Positions 20,479-28,201 of a stretch of DNA of 64,000 nucleotides are shown one piece after another (within the stretch, counting starts at the first letter, position 1; each line of letters opens with the position of its first letter). The stretch is from Natrialba aegyptia DSM 13077 (GTDB lineage Archaea; Halobacteriota; Halobacteria; Halobacteriales; Natrialbaceae), in the NCBI RefSeq assembly GCF_000337535.1, contig NZ_AOIP01000008.1, forward strand, positions 1-64,000. Reading direction: 5' to 3'. The translations under genes were made by a program, and so were the position numbers. A model generated the notes under the pieces. That model searched no databases. It saw only the letters and a list, made by a program, of their open reading frames with translations, and was not told where the DNA came from.

Positions 20479-21990
20479 TCAGTAGACGGCGTCGACGATG
20501 TCGTCGCGAAGGTCCTCGAACTGGGCGAGATACTCCCGTCGTTCGGCGCGGAGTTCAGCGATTGCTTCGTCGTAGTCGTCGACGTGATCGGGGACGTAGT
20601 AGTCCTCGATATCGAGTTCGGGAACGGATTCGGGGATGGTCAGGTCGGTTCGGTCGTCGTCGGTCCACTCGATCGTGCCGCGGGCGGCTTCGGTGAGGAT
20701 CGTGACCGATTCGGTGACGCCGATGTCCTTGGATTGTTCACCGAGGTAGCCGGTGTTGATGACGTAACAGTCGACGTCGAGGATGTCGATCAGGTCGTGG
20801 AAGATGTTGCCCTCCTCGCCCTCGGAGCCGATGATGAACGGGTTCGTCCCGACGACGCGGATCGACTCGCCGGCCCGCGAGGGATCGCCGGCGCTGGTTT
20901 CGATCGATTCGCCGAGCATGAACGCGACGGCGGCCTGGTCGTTGCTGAGCTTCGCGACGGGGGGCATCAACGGGTTTCGGGTGATGAAAAAGACCTGGTC
21001 GATGTCGTCCAGATCGATCTCGTCGTCCGCGCTCTCGAGTTCGTCGCGGCGGACGACCGCGCGCGAGTTCGTGGTGTATCGGTCCTCGTCGAAGTGGACG
21101 GTGCCGTCGTCGTCGACGGCGACGTTCTCGAGAATGGCGGAGTCGTCGGTGGCGGCGCGGTAGAGGCCGGGCTGTTCGTCCTCGTCGAGGCCGATGGTTT
21201 TGATGAAGAGACCGGTGGCCTCGCTACCGGCGACCGAGCCGTCGGGGAGGAGCGCACAGACGTCGTCCTGGCGCATCGAGGCGTCTTCGGGGTCGTCGAG
21301 CCAGCAGCCGTGGGAGGTAAGCGTCGACTTGCCGGTCGCGGAGAGGCCCATGAACGCCTGGCCGACGCTCTGGAGGTCGCCGTCTTCGTCGCGAACGCGA
21401 ACGTGCTTGCTGCCGGCGTGAAGGCCGAGCCCGCCCTGTTGTTTGATCCGGTACATGAACAGGCGGAGGAACGACTTCTTGGCCTCGCCGATGTAATCGG
21501 TTCCGAGAACGGCGGTAAAGCCGATTTCGGGGAGGACGCGGATCGCTCGCTCCTCGTAGTCCGGCAGGTGGACGGTGTACAGATCGGGCTCGCGCCCATC
21601 GGACGGCTCGAATAAGTTTGCCCAGCCCAGTGCGAGACGGGCGTGTTCGACGGGGACGAACAGTCGGCAACAGAAGGTCGCTTCCGGATGTCGCCCCATC
21701 AGCCGGTCGACACAGACCAGTTCGCGCTCACCCGCGAGTTCGACTGCATCCTCGACGAGCGCGTCGTCGGCCGCGGTGAACTCGTGGTCGACGGCGTTTT
21801 TCGTCCGGTCTGCGCTCCGCGAGCGGACGTCGCTGACGTAGGATGGCGATCCGAACTCGGTGGTCGTCTCTTGGTGGGAGGCGAGGTCGCGAAGTTCGGT
21901 GAGCGATGGATTGTGCCGAACGTTCGACGCTGTTACTGGGTCGGGAAGCTGTTGATCCAGCGGACGGGGTTCCGTCCCGGTTTCGGACAT
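20479..21990 (-). CDS. pckA: Phosphoenolpyruvate carboxykinase (ATP)
   Basis: From ATG 21990 (MSETGTEPRPL) the 503 residues include the kinase-1a P-loop GLSATGKST, the ARGTIEW end, and FLRLFMYRIKQQGGLGLHAGSK. It converts oxaloacetate plus ATP to phosphoenolpyruvate, CO2 and ADP, the entry to gluconeogenesis, in the cytosol. ATP-type enzyme is inferred from the P-loop family and length (GTP-type enzymes are about 600 residues). Single gene, with a 336-bp AT-richer region upstream that probably holds its control. Confidence 0.93.
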   Translation of the reverse strand: MSETGTEPRPLDQQLPDPVTASNVRHNPSLTELRDLASHQETTTEFGSPSYVSDVRSRSADRTKNAVDHEFTAADDALVEDAVELAGERELVCVDRLMGRHPEATFCCRLFVPVEHARLALGWANLFEPSDGREPDLYTVHLPDYEERAIRVLPEIGFTAVLGTDYIGEAKKSFLRLFMYRIKQQGGLGLHAGSKHVRVRDEDGDLQSVGQAFMGLSATGKSTLTSHGCWLDDPEDASMRQDDVCALLPDGSVAGSEATGLFIKTIGLDEDEQPGLYRAATDDSAILENVAVDDDGTVHFDEDRYTTNSRAVVRRDELESADDEIDLDDIDQVFFITRNPLMPPVAKLSNDQAAVAFMLGESIETSAGDPSRAGESIRVVGTNPFIIGSEGEEGNIFHDLIDILDVDCYVINTGYLGEQSKDIGVTESVTILTEAARGTIEWTDDDRTDLTIPESVPELDIEDYYVPDHVDDYDEAIAELRAERREYLAQFEDLRDDIVDAVY

Positions 21991-22332
21991 ATACATAACC
22001 CACCATCATCCTGATGTATAAACGTGGAGGATTTTGCGCTGAGTGTGTCATGACTTCCCGAACCGGGATTCAGTGTTTGGTGTCTCATACGTCTCTACGA
22101 CCGATATATAGTCGCTCCCTTCCTAGCGTTATAATCATCTGATATCAGAGGTGTTCCGATGAGAACTCACATCAGAAATAATTCTAACTCCGAGGGAAAG
22201 ACGTGCCGTTGTTTCGCGGTCTGCTGTGTTTTCCTCGGCAGTAACCCGTGCGTTCTAGCCTGTGGTGAGTTGTCAACCACCAACTGAAACTAATGGGCAT
22301 ACATAAACGATAGTATCTCGTTACTACGCGCG
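21991..22332. other. Intergenic region between pckA and the MOSC gene
   Basis: About 340 bp, clearly AT-richer than its surroundings. It holds TATA-like boxes at 22105-22111 (ATATATAG) and 22129-22135 (TTATAAT), a CTGATATCAG palindrome near 22138-22147, and one possible 42-codon cysteine-rich ORF. I see no RNA gene. Confidence 0.6.
22159..22287 (+). CDS. Possible 42-residue cysteine-rich micro-protein
   Basis: ATG 22159 to TGA 22287, with a TTATAAT box centred 27 bases upstream, which suits a leaderless transcript. Six cysteines (CRC, CC, PC, AC) lie in 42 residues. Codon use is AT-rich and not haloarchaeal-like, so it may be foreign or merely open by chance. Confidence 0.25.
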   Translation: MRTHIRNNSNSEGKTCRCFAVCCVFLGSNPCVLACGELSTTN

Positions 22333-23205
22333 ATGGCCTCCCTGGATCGAATCCGTATTCACCCGATCAAGTCCCTCGATGCAGTGACGCTTCAGACAGC
22401 CACAATTCAGACTGGGGGTGGTCTGGCGTGGGATCGGCGCTACGCGATCGTCAAGCGAAACGGTGAGAACGAACCCCTCGACGATACGCCACCGATTTCG
22501 AGTTCGGATCACGCTCTGCAGGCAAGCGATACCTACGTCAACGGCAAGCGCGAACCGGCGGTTCACGGACTGCACATTGAGTACGATCTCGAGCGCGAGA
22601 CGGTGTCGCTCTCGGATACAGGCGACCCGCCTGCAGACGGCGATACGTTTCACCTCGAACTCGACCGGGACTGTCTCGCCTCGTGGCTCTCCGAGTATCT
22701 CGGCTATCCCGTTGAACTCGTTCGCAACGAGGCGGGCGGATTTCCGGACGATACGGACGCGTCCGGCCCGACCGTAATCGCCAGGGCGACGCTCGAGACG
22801 GTTGCATCGTGGTACGACGATATCGATTCGGCGGAGCTGTGTCGTCGGCTTCGGCCGAACCTCGTGGTCGAGGGCGTTCCGGCGTTCTGGGAGGACCGCC
22901 TCTACGGCCCTCCCGGACAGGGAGTTTCGTTCACTATCGGCGCAGCCACGTTCCAGGGGATCAACCCATGCCAGCGGTGCGTGGTTCCGACGCGAAACCC
23001 CGACACCGGCGAGCAGACCGACGGGTTTCGAGAGACCTTCATCGAGCGCCGCCGGGAGACGCTGCCGGACTGGGCGAGCGAGGAGTGGTTCGATCACTAC
23101 TTCCGGTTGATGGTCAACACGACCGTCTCCGAGTCGTCGTGGGGAACAGCGATCGAGACCGGGGACGCGGTTTCGGTCGGTGAGCGACAGCGCGTTCCGC
23201 AGTAA
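22333..23205 (+). CDS. MOSC domain protein (mARC/YcbX-like)
   Basis: The 290 residues begin with the MOSC N-terminal beta-barrel (DRIRIHPIKSLDAVTLQTA) and contain the MOSC core with GINPCQRCVVPTRNPDTG; the conserved cysteine there ligates molybdenum in mARC/YcbX enzymes. These reduce N-hydroxylated compounds using a ferredoxin-like electron source. No fused ferredoxin domain is present (YcbX has one), so it needs an external donor. It reads in the same direction as the following actin-like gene, 81 bp apart. Confidence 0.9.
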   Translation: MASLDRIRIHPIKSLDAVTLQTATIQTGGGLAWDRRYAIVKRNGENEPLDDTPPISSSDHALQASDTYVNGKREPAVHGLHIEYDLERETVSLSDTGDPPADGDTFHLELDRDCLASWLSEYLGYPVELVRNEAGGFPDDTDASGPTVIARATLETVASWYDDIDSAELCRRLRPNLVVEGVPAFWEDRLYGPPGQGVSFTIGAATFQGINPCQRCVVPTRNPDTGEQTDGFRETFIERRRETLPDWASEEWFDHYFRLMVNTTVSESSWGTAIETGDAVSVGERQRVPQ

Positions 23206-23286
23206 CTCCGTCAGCAGCCCCGCGCCCGTTTTCACATCTGGTACTCACGGGCAAAGTACCAAGAGTAACCCCTGGGTTGTCGTCGC

Positions 23287-25941
23287 ATGGACTACGGTCT
23301 CGATATCGGTGCGGACGCGATCCGACTGGCGAGCGGCCAGCCTGCCTCACCGTCCGTCGCGTCGACACCCGCACTCGTGCTTGCGACCTCAGCACTCGAA
23401 GCGACGCCGCCAGCGGGCGATGCTGAACTCGTCGAAACCGCTGACGCGGCGTATCGCGTCGGCTCGGACGCACTCGCGGCGGCGGAGGCGGAAGACGACG
23501 AACCCGAGTCGCTGTTCCGGAACGGCGTGCTCCCGCCTGCTCCTCACGGCGACGCCGCGTTTGCCGCACTCGTTGAGAGCGTCTTCGCCGAGCAGGAGAC
23601 CCAGGGGCAGGCACAGGCACAGTCGGCCGAAACCGGCGGTCGACTCTATTACACGATACCGGGTACGCTCGTCGACGCCGGCGCACCGACCGACGCCCAC
23701 CGAGAGACCGTCGCCTCGACGCTCGAAACTGTCGTGAATCGTCACGGTGACGAGAACAAGAATGAGAGCGAGAGCGGAGGCGGGGACAGGAACGAGGACG
23801 AGTTCGGTGTCGGTGTGACGCCGATCAGCCGGGGCTTTGCGGTCGTCTACGACCAGTTCGCTGCGGACAACTACACCGGACTCGGCATCTGTCTGGGACC
23901 GCAGACGACGAGCGTCGCGCTGGCGTACTACGGCGTCCCGGTCCTCGCGTTCGCCGTTCCGCGGGGCACCGACTGGATCGTCGACCGGGCGGCCGATGAA
24001 ACCGGTCACACACCCGAACGGGTCCACAGCGTGCTCGAAACGTTCGAACTCGACCCCGACGCGGACACCGGCCCGATCGAGCGTGCACTCGCCGCGGCGT
24101 TCGACGACCTCGTCGGTGAACTCGGCGACGCACTCGGTGTGCAGGCGACCGAGGCCGACCTTCAGCGGGGCGTCGCCGTGCCGATCGCAGTCGCAGGCTC
24201 AGGTGCCGTCGAAGGGCTCGAGTTCCTGCTGGGCGGTCGATTCGATGCGGCGGGACTGCCGCTCTCGATCCGCGGCGTGCGACTCGCCGACGATCCCGAG
24301 TCGAGCCCGGCGCGCGGCGCGCTCGCAGCCGCTGCGGACGAAGTCGAGCCCTACGAGGACGTAATCTGGGACGATGGGCCGAAGGACGGACCGTCGGCCG
24401 AGGTCCCAGAAAGCGAGCGCACAGCGCCGGCGGCACAGGCCGATGACGCGACGCTGTCGTTCGACGATACGGGCACCGATAGCGCCGCCGTCGGAGATGC
24501 CGCGGACGCCGCTATCGACACCCTGTTCGACCGACTCGCGAACCGGGACGACGAGATTCAAGGCCTCACGGCCGACCTCGAAGGGCTCGAAACCACCGTC
24601 GAAATCGAACTTGAGCGCGTCCGGGAGCGCATCGACGACCTCGAAGCCGCGAGTGACGACCGCGCCGAGGCGGACACCGTCGCCGCCCTCGAATCGACAG
24701 TAGAATCGCTCTCCGAGCGTGCCTCGGACCGCGAAGACGAGATCGACACCGCGCTCGAAACCGCCGAAACGCGCGTGGACGGCGTCGCCGGTCGGCTCGA
24801 AGAACAGGCGACCCGACTCGACGCCGTTTCCGGACGGATCGAAGAACTCTCGGCCCGTACCGACTCGCGCATCGACGACGCCGACGCTGCGCGCGATGAA
24901 CTCGCCGCGGACCTCGACGCGATCGAAGAGCAACTCGCGGAGACGACGGCGGCGCTCGAAACGGATCGTGACTCCCTCGAGACGCTCGAAGCAACGGTCG
25001 ACCGACTCGAAGCGGACACGTCGACGACGGCTCTCGACGACCTCGAAGCCCGCGTCGACGAGTGCAGAACCGATCTCGACGACCATCGGGAGCGCGTCGA
25101 CGACCTGGACGAGACTCTCGAGACAACGACGACGGCCCTCGGTGCAGTCGAAACCAGGACCGACGACATCGCGGCCGATACCGACCGCCTCGCAGACGAG
25201 TTCACCGCACTTGCCGATCGCTGTCCGGAGGGTGAACTCGCAACCCGCAGCGCAGTTACGGCGCTCGAAGACGAACTCGAATCCGTTCGGACGACTTTCG
25301 AAGAGCTCGAGGAACTCGAGGATCGCGTCGCAGCGGCCGAAGCGGCCAGCGAAACCGTAGACGCGGCGTTCGAGGACCGACTCGCGGCCCTGGCCGACCG
25401 ACTCGACGCGATCGACGAGCGAGTGACCGACTCCAGCGACCGCCTCGAATCCGTCGCCGCCGACGCGGATTCCGTCGAAGCGGACGTGACGGGCGTTACC
25501 GATGACGTAGACGACATTGAGAGTGACCTCGAGACGCTCTCGGCTGCCGTCGAATCCACCCCTGACGCCGCAACGGTCGACGACCTCGCCGCTGAGACGG
25601 ACCGGGTAGCCGCCGATATCGACGCGGTCCGCGAAACCGTCTCGGCAGTCGACTCCGAGCAGACCGCACTCGAGGAGCGACTCGACGAACTGAACACCGC
25701 CCTCGAGGACACCGTGAGCCGAGACGAGTTCGCCGCGCTCCGTTCGGAACTCGAAGACCGCGAGGAACGGGCGCCGTCGCCGAGTTCACTCGGCGGCCCG
25801 CTGCTCGCCGGTGGCGGCGGCGCTGGCGTCGTCGCTGGCGCGCTCGTCGCACTCGCGGTACCCGGAACGGGCGGGGTCGGCGTCGCCGCAGCCGCGATCG
25901 GTGTCGCGTTGCTCGCGGCCGCCGTCGCGGTGACTCGGTAG
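23287..25941 (+). CDS. Actin-like (ASKHA) domain fused to long coiled coil and C-terminal membrane hairpin
   Basis: 884 residues in three parts. Residues 1-340 look like an actin/Hsp70-fold domain: phosphate-1 strand YGLDIGADAIRLAS (3-16), phosphate-2-like ICLGPQTTSVALAYYG (201-216), and adenosine-loop-like VAGSGAVEGLEFLLGG (302-317). The phosphate-2 aspartate is replaced by Cys, so ATP hydrolysis is uncertain. A charged insertion lies at 153-173. After a disordered linker (340-405), residues 410-825 form an almost unbroken Glu/Asp/Leu/Arg coiled coil. The last 45 residues form two Gly/Ala/Val membrane segments. The protein should be anchored in the membrane facing the cytosol. Actin homologues (salactin, volactin) shape haloarchaeal cells; relation to them is not shown. 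No partner gene adjoins. Confidence 0.75.
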   Translation: MDYGLDIGADAIRLASGQPASPSVASTPALVLATSALEATPPAGDAELVETADAAYRVGSDALAAAEAEDDEPESLFRNGVLPPAPHGDAAFAALVESVFAEQETQGQAQAQSAETGGRLYYTIPGTLVDAGAPTDAHRETVASTLETVVNRHGDENKNESESGGGDRNEDEFGVGVTPISRGFAVVYDQFAADNYTGLGICLGPQTTSVALAYYGVPVLAFAVPRGTDWIVDRAADETGHTPERVHSVLETFELDPDADTGPIERALAAAFDDLVGELGDALGVQATEADLQRGVAVPIAVAGSGAVEGLEFLLGGRFDAAGLPLSIRGVRLADDPESSPARGALAAAADEVEPYEDVIWDDGPKDGPSAEVPESERTAPAAQADDATLSFDDTGTDSAAVGDAADAAIDTLFDRLANRDDEIQGLTADLEGLETTVEIELERVRERIDDLEAASDDRAEADTVAALESTVESLSERASDREDEIDTALETAETRVDGVAGRLEEQATRLDAVSGRIEELSARTDSRIDDADAARDELAADLDAIEEQLAETTAALETDRDSLETLEATVDRLEADTSTTALDDLEARVDECRTDLDDHRERVDDLDETLETTTTALGAVETRTDDIAADTDRLADEFTALADRCPEGELATRSAVTALEDELESVRTTFEELEELEDRVAAAEAASETVDAAFEDRLAALADRLDAIDERVTDSSDRLESVAADADSVEADVTGVTDDVDDIESDLETLSAAVESTPDAATVDDLAAETDRVAADIDAVRETVSAVDSEQTALEERLDELNTALEDTVSRDEFAALRSELEDREERAPSPSSLGGPLLAGGGGAGVVAGALVALAVPGTGGVGVAAAAIGVALLAAAVAVTR

Positions 25942-25977: not shown

Positions 25978-26367
25978 TCAGCTTCGAGCCGTCGTTTCGT
26001 CTTCGACGATCGAATCGTCCGCGACGTTCGGCGCACCGATCGCGAGCACGCGACTCTCCTCGACGGCCTCGAGTTGCCGCCAGGACTCGGGCGGGACGAC
26101 CATGAACTCGTGTTTCGTGAGCGTGACGACGTCGCGTTCGGTCTCCCGTTCGACCGTCACATCGACGGTTCCCTCGAGAACGACGTACAGTTCCTCCTGC
26201 TCGTCTTGCCGGTGGTAGGTGCTTTCCTCGCCGCGGTCGTAGTGCCAGACGCTCGGCCGCATCTGCTCGGGTTGCAGGTCGAGTCCGACGGGAAACAGCG
26301 TCGGTTCGAGTTCGTCCAGTTCGCGCGACTCGACGGTATCGAGGGACGCAACCGAGTACAGCGACAT
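25978..26367 (-). CDS. Cupin domain protein
   Basis: From ATG 26367 (MSLYSVASL) the 129 residues form a single cupin barrel with STYHRQDEQEELYVVLEGTVDVTVE as motif 1 and HEFMVVPPESWRQLEA as motif 2. The metal-binding set is H..Q..E with a weak second motif, so metal binding may be partial. Such stand-alone cupins may be sugar isomerases, dioxygenases or sensors; the role is unknown. It follows the zinc-ribbon ORF by 54 bp. Confidence 0.85.
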   Translation of the reverse strand: MSLYSVASLDTVESRELDELEPTLFPVGLDLQPEQMRPSVWHYDRGEESTYHRQDEQEELYVVLEGTVDVTVERETERDVVTLTKHEFMVVPPESWRQLEAVEESRVLAIGAPNVADDSIVEDETTARS

Positions 26368-26421
26368 GGACGATAGGTCGACGACCGGGGGCAAAAAACC
26401 GCGGCAGGGACAGGAGTCTAC

Positions 26422-26577: not shown

Positions 26578-27822
26578 TTAACTCTTTTCGTGATGTGCGG
26601 GTCGGTCAGTATGCCAGAGAACGATGGCGAGACCCGTCGCGACGATAATGGAGGCGGTCAGCAGCCAGAACGCCGGCTGGAAGCCGGCGGCGTCCGAAAT
26701 CACGCCGACGATCGCCGGCGAGATCGCACCGGCCGCCATGAGCAGCGTTCGGACGACGCCGAGTCCTCCGCCGGCCACGTCGTCCGGAATCGCCGACATC
26801 AGATACGCGCCCCTGACAGGCCGAAACCCGTGCGAGCCGATGCCTGCAGCGATGAGCGCGCCGCCGAGTACGATCGGACCGGCGGCGTTCGTCAGCGAGA
26901 CGAACGCGATCAGCGCAAGCGACGCGAGACCAAGGGTTGCGGTAATAAGCGGCAGTCGGCCGACCCGGTCGCTCAGATCGCCGGTCACCAACTGCACCAG
27001 ACTCGCCAGAAAGAGCCCGCTGAAGAGGACGTTCGCCATCCCGTCGGTCAATCCGGCTTCCGTCGTTAGATACTGCGGTGCGAACGAGACCAGGCCGTTG
27101 TACGTAAACGAAAACAGCACGGTCAACAGTGCGAAGGCCGCAAACCGCGGGTCGCGAAAGAGCGACGCGTACTCCCTGAACTCGTCGAGACTGACGCCAC
27201 TGGTCGTGCCGCCGTCCGTCGTTTCGTCCGGGACCCGCTGTGGCACGCGGGTCCAGAAGAGCGCGGCCAGGACGAGTCCACAGAGCCCGGCACTCAGGAA
27301 GACCAGCCGCCAGCTTGCCCCGAGCACGAACGGCACGCCTGCAACGAGCACGACGGCCCAGGGCGCGACGACGCCGGCGAACGCACCGAACGTATCCAAA
27401 ACCCCGAGCGCGCGGCCGGTTCGCGCCGGATACGCTCGCGAGAGCAGTCTGACGGCGACGGTCTTGTGCGCGCCAGTCCCCGCGCCCATAACGAGCATCA
27501 CGCCGACGAGGACGAGAAACGACGAGTCGACGACGAGGGCGAGTGCGGACCCCGCGGCGACGAACACCCCGGTCGTGATGACCGTCACCGAGCCGAGGCG
27601 GTCGGCGAGCACGCCCGACGGAAATTGCATCGCCGCGTACACCAGCATGAATCCGGAAAACGCCGTCCCCAGGGCGGCGTTCGAGACGTGATACGTTTCC
27701 TGAAACGAACCGAAAAGCGGCGGGAAAACGTATCGCAGAAACTTCGCCAGAAACCAGATTCCGGCCGTCAGTAACAGCGCATCGAAGTGGCCGACTCGTC
27801 GTACCGCCGTCCTAACCGACAT
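26578..27822 (-). CDS. MFS transporter
   Basis: From ATG 27822 (MSVRTAVRRVGHFDA) the 414 residues hold twelve hydrophobic segments and the MFS loop motif GVLADRLGSVTVI after helix 2, repeated weakly as GDLSDRVGRLPLI in the second half. Major facilitator proteins act as proton- or sodium-coupled transporters. Sequence resembles the general sugar/drug/nitrate group, substrate unknown. Longer in-frame starts are Cys/Arg-rich and overlap the promoter of the divergent gene, so they are rejected. Confidence 0.9.
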   Translation of the reverse strand: MSVRTAVRRVGHFDALLLTAGIWFLAKFLRYVFPPLFGSFQETYHVSNAALGTAFSGFMLVYAAMQFPSGVLADRLGSVTVITTGVFVAAGSALALVVDSSFLVLVGVMLVMGAGTGAHKTVAVRLLSRAYPARTGRALGVLDTFGAFAGVVAPWAVVLVAGVPFVLGASWRLVFLSAGLCGLVLAALFWTRVPQRVPDETTDGGTTSGVSLDEFREYASLFRDPRFAAFALLTVLFSFTYNGLVSFAPQYLTTEAGLTDGMANVLFSGLFLASLVQLVTGDLSDRVGRLPLITATLGLASLALIAFVSLTNAAGPIVLGGALIAAGIGSHGFRPVRGAYLMSAIPDDVAGGGLGVVRTLLMAAGAISPAIVGVISDAAGFQPAFWLLTASIIVATGLAIVLWHTDRPAHHEKS

Positions 27823-27987
27823 TCGGTTCTCGTTTCCCGTAGGACGGGCAGCCGACGAGAAGCCTCCGGTCCCGGCAGATCTCTTGGCTACCGCCACGGA
27901 GACATGGACGCATCGCGATCGGCACTCGATCTGAAATGAGAATGTGGTTAAATCACATATTATTGTATTCTCCCCTAGCAGGCAGCA

Positions 27988-27996
27988 TTTATATAC
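27988..27996 (+). promoter_or_regulatory. TATA box for the small zinc-finger gene at 28022
   Basis: TTTATATAC centred 30 bases before the ATG, in an AT-rich stretch. This is a near-consensus haloarchaeal TATA element for a leaderless transcript. Confidence 0.7.
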
Positions 27997-28021
27997 GGAT
28001 TCGCCGTACTCCGCTCTACGC

Positions 28022-28201
28022 ATGGCAGTAACTACAACCGACTGGTCCGATCCCGTTTCGTGCCCGTTCTGCGGCGACGAGCTCGCCTCGCCGGGCGCTG
28101 GCTTCGTCGATCACATCCACGAGAACGAAGCCTGTGAGGACGAGTTCACGTTCTGGCGCGAGAACGTAAGCGGGGACCTAGCGGGAGAGTGGGCGGGCTA
28201 A
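28022..28201 (+). CDS. 59-residue zinc-finger-like protein
   Basis: MAVTTTDWSDPVSCPFCG opens the protein. A CPFCG knuckle is followed by DHIHENEAC, a likely C2HC or C2H2-type zinc site, and a tail WRENVSGDLAGEW. It resembles a small conserved haloarchaeal family. A strong TATA box makes it probably well expressed. Function unknown, perhaps a regulator or translation-related micro-protein. Confidence 0.8.
   Translation: MAVTTTDWSDPVSCPFCGDELASPGAGFVDHIHENEACEDEFTFWRENVSGDLAGEWAG

Follow-up and report, generated by a model that had tools for sequence, protein, structure and literature searches.

A volactin paralogue with a predicted coiled-coil stalk and membrane hairpin in Natrialbaceae

One open reading frame of Natrialba aegyptia DSM 13077 joins a volactin-family head to a linker, a long coiled coil and a C-terminal membrane hairpin, and represents a paralogous volactin subfamily with a new architecture. 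The gene lies in the first 64,000 nucleotides of contig NZ_AOIP01000008.1, the stretch of DNA analyzed here and referred to as the window. An earlier note, made from the DNA letters, had read the frame as an actin-like head, a linker, a coiled coil and a membrane hairpin, and this layout is borne out by the Pfam family PF25216, structure prediction, hydrophobic periodicity and hydropathy. The literature searched, which took in few subscription papers and no preprints, describes no volactin paralogue that carries a coil or a membrane anchor, in line with the note’s view that the protein may be undescribed.

Gene and domain layout

The complete gene occupies 23287..25941 on the + strand, beginning with an ATG at 23287 and ending with a TAG at 25941, and encodes 884 residues. 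Five regions, all on the + strand, follow one another along the chain. The actin-fold head (residues 1–352; 23287..24342) is defined by the PF25216 profile match, the predicted model and fold comparison. It is followed by a disordered linker (residues 353–402; 24343..24492), identified by the model and by alignment, which is the least conserved stretch of the protein among Natrialba species. A conserved junction helix around AIDTLFDRLANRD (residues 405–421; 24499..24549), supported by alignment, model and motif scan, leads into a heptad coiled coil (about residues 422–827; 24550..25767) recognized by hydrophobic periodicity and in the full-length model. The chain ends in a Gly-rich two-helix membrane hairpin (residues 836–884; 25792..25938), assigned from hydropathy, the model and relatives.

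The reading frame is conserved across genera, and whole-gene dN/dS values against N. taiwanensis and N. asiatica are 0.36–0.39, which together show the frame to be a genuine gene, as opposed to a GC-rich frame arising by chance. With the head alone at 0.32–0.34 within Natrialba, sequence comparison indicates that the gene is under purifying selection in this genus.

Upstream of the fused gene lie a PEP carboxykinase gene (20479–21996, − strand) and a MOSC-domain gene (22333–23205, + strand); a cupin gene (25978–26394, − strand) and an MFS transporter gene (26578–28023, − strand) lie on its other side. All four recur near many fused genes, and these neighbours, conserved in some of the family, suggest no partner or functional link for the fused protein. 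Alignment also revealed a conserved upstream DNA block, TTTTCACATCTGGTACTCACGGGCAAAGTACCAAGAG (TTTTCACATCTGGTACTC...CAAAGTACCAAGAG; 23227..23267, + strand), strongly conserved in most Natrialbaceae fused loci, which is a possible promoter or regulator site of the fused gene’s own.

Family and fold of the head

In a Pfam profile search, PF25216 (Volactin) matches the head up to residue 349 with an E-value of 1.2e-98 and 331 bits, against a curated cut-off of 35 bits; the match falls in two stretches (profile positions 1–142 and 142–321), and the family is likewise matched by all 24 members of alignment A1. A profile search of the organism’s own genome gave no match of MreB_Mbl (PF06723) to the fused gene, and no NCBIfam model matched the head. 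Searching the PDB with the head sequence alone gave no actin match, and a head profile run against the PDB matched FtsA, MamK and BeeR at E-values of only 0.01–0.06 (MamK ~0.04). Given such weak matches, a comparison at the level of fold was needed. The AlphaFold2 model of residues 1–431, built with 36 relatives, has a pLDDT of 81.7 and a pTM of 0.78, with residues 359–399 disordered. VIA-align superposed the head model on MamK (5ljv) with a Z-score of 27.1 over 295 residues and an rmsd of 3.3 Å; structural comparison gave Z-scores of 25.6 for T. maritima MreB (1jcg), 25.5 for BeeR (8r2n) and 25.0 for crenactin (4cj7). The actin fold suggested earlier for the N-terminus thus agrees with the predicted structure (Z 25–27), and the head is, by prediction, an actin fold and, by sequence, a volactin. 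The earlier note had also set this layout apart from salactin and volactin as a possibly undescribed cytoskeletal protein; a separation of the head from volactin does not hold, as the head is a diverged PF25216 member and the same genome has an ordinary volactin.

The closest known system is volactin itself (VolA, HVO_2015, of Haloferax volcanii), which resembles the fused protein through PF25216 over most of the head and through the same predicted actin fold; G4, D6, T197-G198, the YYxVP motif, G304 and G310 are common to both. Volactin is ~340 residues long and has no coil or membrane segment, whereas the fused form adds the linker, junction, coil and hairpin. MamK, MreB, BeeR and crenactin, for all their likeness in predicted head fold, share only 13–20% sequence identity with the head and lack the C-terminal stalk and hairpin of the fused protein. 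FtsA and PilM are similar in using an actin fold near the membrane. FtsA, however, attaches to the membrane through a short C-terminal amphipathic helix, where the fused protein has a disordered linker, a long coil and a hydrophobic hairpin after its head. The RodZ–MreB pair is alike in concept, linking an actin filament to the membrane, but RodZ is a separate protein that has no actin head, and the fused protein holds anchor and actin fold in one chain. Salactin of Halobacterium salinarum is likewise a haloarchaeal actin-fold protein, whose filaments grow from the poles of the cell; it consists of one actin domain bearing a charged N-terminal tail and is reported to be most like MamK (PMC10746226). 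Neither a coil nor a hairpin has been described for it, in contrast to the fused protein.

Changes at the active site

Active-site positions were mapped by profile alignment to MamK, in which E143 corresponds to residue 182 and the phosphate-2 Asp to C202. The connect-1 region VTPISRGF (residues 177–184; 23815..23838, + strand) places R182 at the catalytic Glu site of MamK and volactin, and the head model, with a strand at 176–181 followed by a helix at 182–190, fits this position. The connect-1 Glu is present in 19 of 19 stand-alone volactins and in none of the 45 fused heads, which carry R (15), K (15), T (5), Q (4), S (3), P (2) or A (1) in its place. The adenosine-type loop AVPIAVAGSGAVEG (residues 297–310; 24175..24216, + strand) has AGSGA where volactin has an invariant TGGTSS, so that volactin keeps, and the fused form does not, both the Glu and this loop.

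In the phosphate-2 region, GLGICLGPQTTS (residues 198–209; 23878..23913, + strand), C202 replaces Asp and Q206 replaces Gly; most fused heads have Q or E at the position of this second phosphate-2 Gly. The earlier note had pointed to the Cys as loss of a key acid. The residue was correctly identified, but the loss is not a special one, since residue 202 is Ser in 19 of 19 stand-alone volactins, which also lack an acid there, and mostly Cys in fused heads. By sequence, the clearer difference of the fused heads is the connect-1 catalytic position.

Part of the site is retained. The phosphate-1 motif GLDIGADAIR (residues 4–13; 23296..23325, + strand) keeps D6 in 43 of 45 fused heads, its remainder being degenerate, and the alignment shows that D6, G183, G200, T208, G304 and G310 are kept, residues compatible with a folded and possibly nucleotide-binding head. 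Preferential erosion of the active site was not seen: 8 of 28 volactin-invariant active-site positions are kept, against 38 of 166 elsewhere (Fisher p 0.48). The claim is accordingly limited to loss of the catalytic Glu and does not extend to selective decay of the whole site. Because the Glu, the second phosphate-2 Gly and TGGTSS are lost, ATP hydrolysis by fused heads appears unlikely.

Junction, stalk and hairpin

Between the disordered linker and the coil sits AIDTLFDRLANRDDEI. The near-invariant junction motif AIDxLFDRLANRDEEI (24499–24549 in the window) is absent from stand-alone volactin; 24 full-length relatives show almost no variation at F414, D415, R416, L417, R420 and D421. A simple pattern for the motif, run within the residues scanned, matched 33 of 45 fused proteins but not the fused forms of families f7 and f10. 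The junction may mark the start of the coil, acting as a coil trigger, or may be a partner-binding site.

Over residues 409–824, hydrophobic periodicity peaks at ~3.5 residues, 21.6 s.d. above composition-matched shuffles, and there are only two prolines in 416 residues. The full-length model has a near-continuous helix from 405 to 809 (helices 405–418, 420–459, 462–576, 581–756 and 761–809) with pLDDT of about 45–76, modest values that are expected when one strand of a coiled coil is modelled alone. Periodicity and model both favour the coiled coil claimed earlier. The stalk is 32% D/E against 9% K/R. By arithmetic (0.15 nm per residue), a coil of ~420 residues would extend about 60 nm. Total length of the fused protein ranges from 505 to 1313 residues in 45 copies, and almost all of the difference is in the coil; steps of seven residues appear repeatedly among the coil indels, but many others do not fit a multiple of seven, and gap placement is uncertain. 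Natural short-stalk forms occur at L065:1492-3006 (505 residues) and L042:3873-5597 (575 residues), with head and hairpin kept and little coil.

The last 50 residues show hydropathy peaks of 1.93 at residue 840 and 2.55 at residue 864, in segments joined by PGTGG; the model places helices at 836–857 and 862–883, where local pLDDT is only 40–59. In each of the 45 fused relatives the chain ends in a strongly hydrophobic segment and a second, weaker one is present, which together with the two peaks upholds the membrane segments first read from the sequence. In most relatives the C-terminal segment carries a AGGGGAGVVAGG-like signature, and the hairpin searched alone matched no Pfam family. For a head inside the cell, a two-helix hairpin would place both ends in the cytoplasm.

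Paralogy, divergence and distribution

An ordinary 340-residue volactin is encoded in the same genome (G000:C6:61334-62350), at a site that does not neighbour the fused gene, and the two heads are ~32% identical. In an unrooted tree of 64 heads, one branch with support 100/99 splits 45 fused from 19 stand-alone heads; since the two kinds fall on opposite sides of this branch, the fused protein is, on sequence grounds, a volactin paralogue and not a VolA orthologue. Between genera, stand-alone volactins are 90–98% identical, whereas fused heads from the same genome pairs are 27–66% identical: relative to volactin, the fused form evolves fast.

The survey for the same fusion that the earlier note had called for covered 391 haloarchaeal genomes drawn from the class. 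A PF25216-family match was present in 233, and the fused form, counted when confirmed by long open frames, in 80: 75 of 101 Natrialbaceae and five in two other families (G058, G170 and G261 in f7; G060 and G279 in f10). Carriers include Natrialba, Natronorubrum, Haloterrigena, Natrinema, Natronococcus, Halovivax, Haloarchaeobius and Halorubellus; the fused form is absent from 26 of 101 Natrialbaceae genomes and from most other volactin-bearing families. Stand-alone volactin is also present in all 80 fused-form genomes, which is weak evidence of a link because volactin is near-universal in Natrialbaceae.

Volactin is reported to be probably essential in H. volcanii. In one Natrialbaceae genome (G378:C54, genus g3) the stand-alone volactin gene is split by an 8,861-bp element (L109:2006-10867), flanked by a 13-bp direct repeat, GATGAAACTCATC, which is itself part of volA; the element has a gene judged from sequence to be tyrosine-recombinase-like (L109:9263-10237, − strand). 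Joining the flanks gives a 347-residue open frame, and a second intact volactin was not found in this genome. At another locus (L112; G142:C4), an additional volactin copy, disrupted by a frame change, lies on a 13-kb contig of a genome with two intact copies.

Proposed role and alternatives

We tentatively favour, at somewhat less than even confidence, a membrane-tethered, hydrolysis-defective volactin paralogue serving to anchor or nucleate volactin filaments; the anchor role suggested in the earlier note is plausible. The coiled coil would dimerize or oligomerize, and the hairpin would anchor a stalk that keeps the heads in the cytoplasm, tens of nanometres from the membrane. These heads, similar enough in fold for pairing with volactin subunits yet defective in ATP hydrolysis, would bind or nucleate the end (or side) of a volactin filament. 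As bound heads would not release on hydrolysis, a dynamic filament would gain a stable hold on the membrane. This proposal draws on the PF25216 head, the MreB/MamK-like predicted fold, the universal loss of the Glu, the coil, the hairpin and the co-occurrence with volactin. Against it, the fused gene and the volactin gene lie at separate sites, the fused form is missing from 26 of 101 Natrialbaceae, and volactin-invariant positions are lost across the whole head, so that filament-contact surfaces may also have changed. In H. volcanii, volactin filaments bind the membrane by their tips, for which volactin-binding factors yet to be found were proposed (PMC10869688), and volactin is reported as the only identified actin homologue (PMC7617734); tip anchoring there therefore does not need the fused protein.

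Nearly as likely is an adaptor outside the filament system, in which the head would be a non-polymerizing pseudo-ATPase platform for another partner, such as a division, surface or signalling protein, much as FtsA and PilM employ the actin fold in a scaffold linked to the membrane. The fast divergence of fused heads (27–66% between genera, against 90–98% for volactin) fits such a role, as do changes throughout the head, including the RRPM loop invariant in volactin, and conserved features, the junction motif and YDQ, that are specific to the fused form and absent from volactin. The core strands and the YYxVP motif are kept, however, and the fused form occurs only in volactin-holding genomes, though volactin is near-universal in Natrialbaceae.

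Rather improbable is a membrane-bound actin that would polymerize with itself into a filament or sheet hung on coiled-coil spacers. The predicted fold is intact, the phosphate-1 Asp and several loop glycines are kept, and hydrolysis-dead actins can still polymerize; yet loss of both the catalytic Glu and the second phosphate-2 Gly speaks against it, and a stalk on each subunit would be sterically costly.

The membrane–chromosome tether with an SMC-like stalk raised in the earlier note is unsupported and very improbable: SMC, Rad50 and archaea-specific SMC-related models do pick up the coil, but these scores cover nothing else and lie far below cut-off (64.6 bits against 300 for ASRP, 52 against 567 for SMC), profile searches found no ABC-ATPase head, hinge or DNA-binding domain, and the stalk is strongly acidic (32% D/E against 9% K/R). 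Least probable of all is a functionless decaying duplicate, for although divergence is rapid and length variable, open frames of 505–1313 residues persist in the 45 copies examined, dN/dS is 0.32–0.39 within Natrialba (head and whole gene), and hairpin, junction and upstream DNA are conserved.

Returning to the anchoring of volactin filaments, a more specific form of the proposal, which we consider possible if somewhat unlikely, is a cis-anchored filament-end receptor made from the filament’s own subunit: hydrolysis-dead, membrane-anchored, with a variable stalk, capping or nucleating volactin filaments. We know of no described counterpart of this kind among prokaryotic actins.

Implications for haloarchaeal actins

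Volactin filaments are dynamic and act in haloarchaeal shape change and in compression-induced tissue formation, and the available text of the two studies names no membrane partner for volactin (PMC10869688, PMC7617734). The fused paralogue offers a concrete candidate for filament-to-membrane coupling in a large haloarchaeal family and brings this coupling within reach of direct tests. In eukaryotes, actin-related proteins took on regulatory roles in filaments; if the fused protein is indeed an anchor, it would be a prokaryotic parallel to them.
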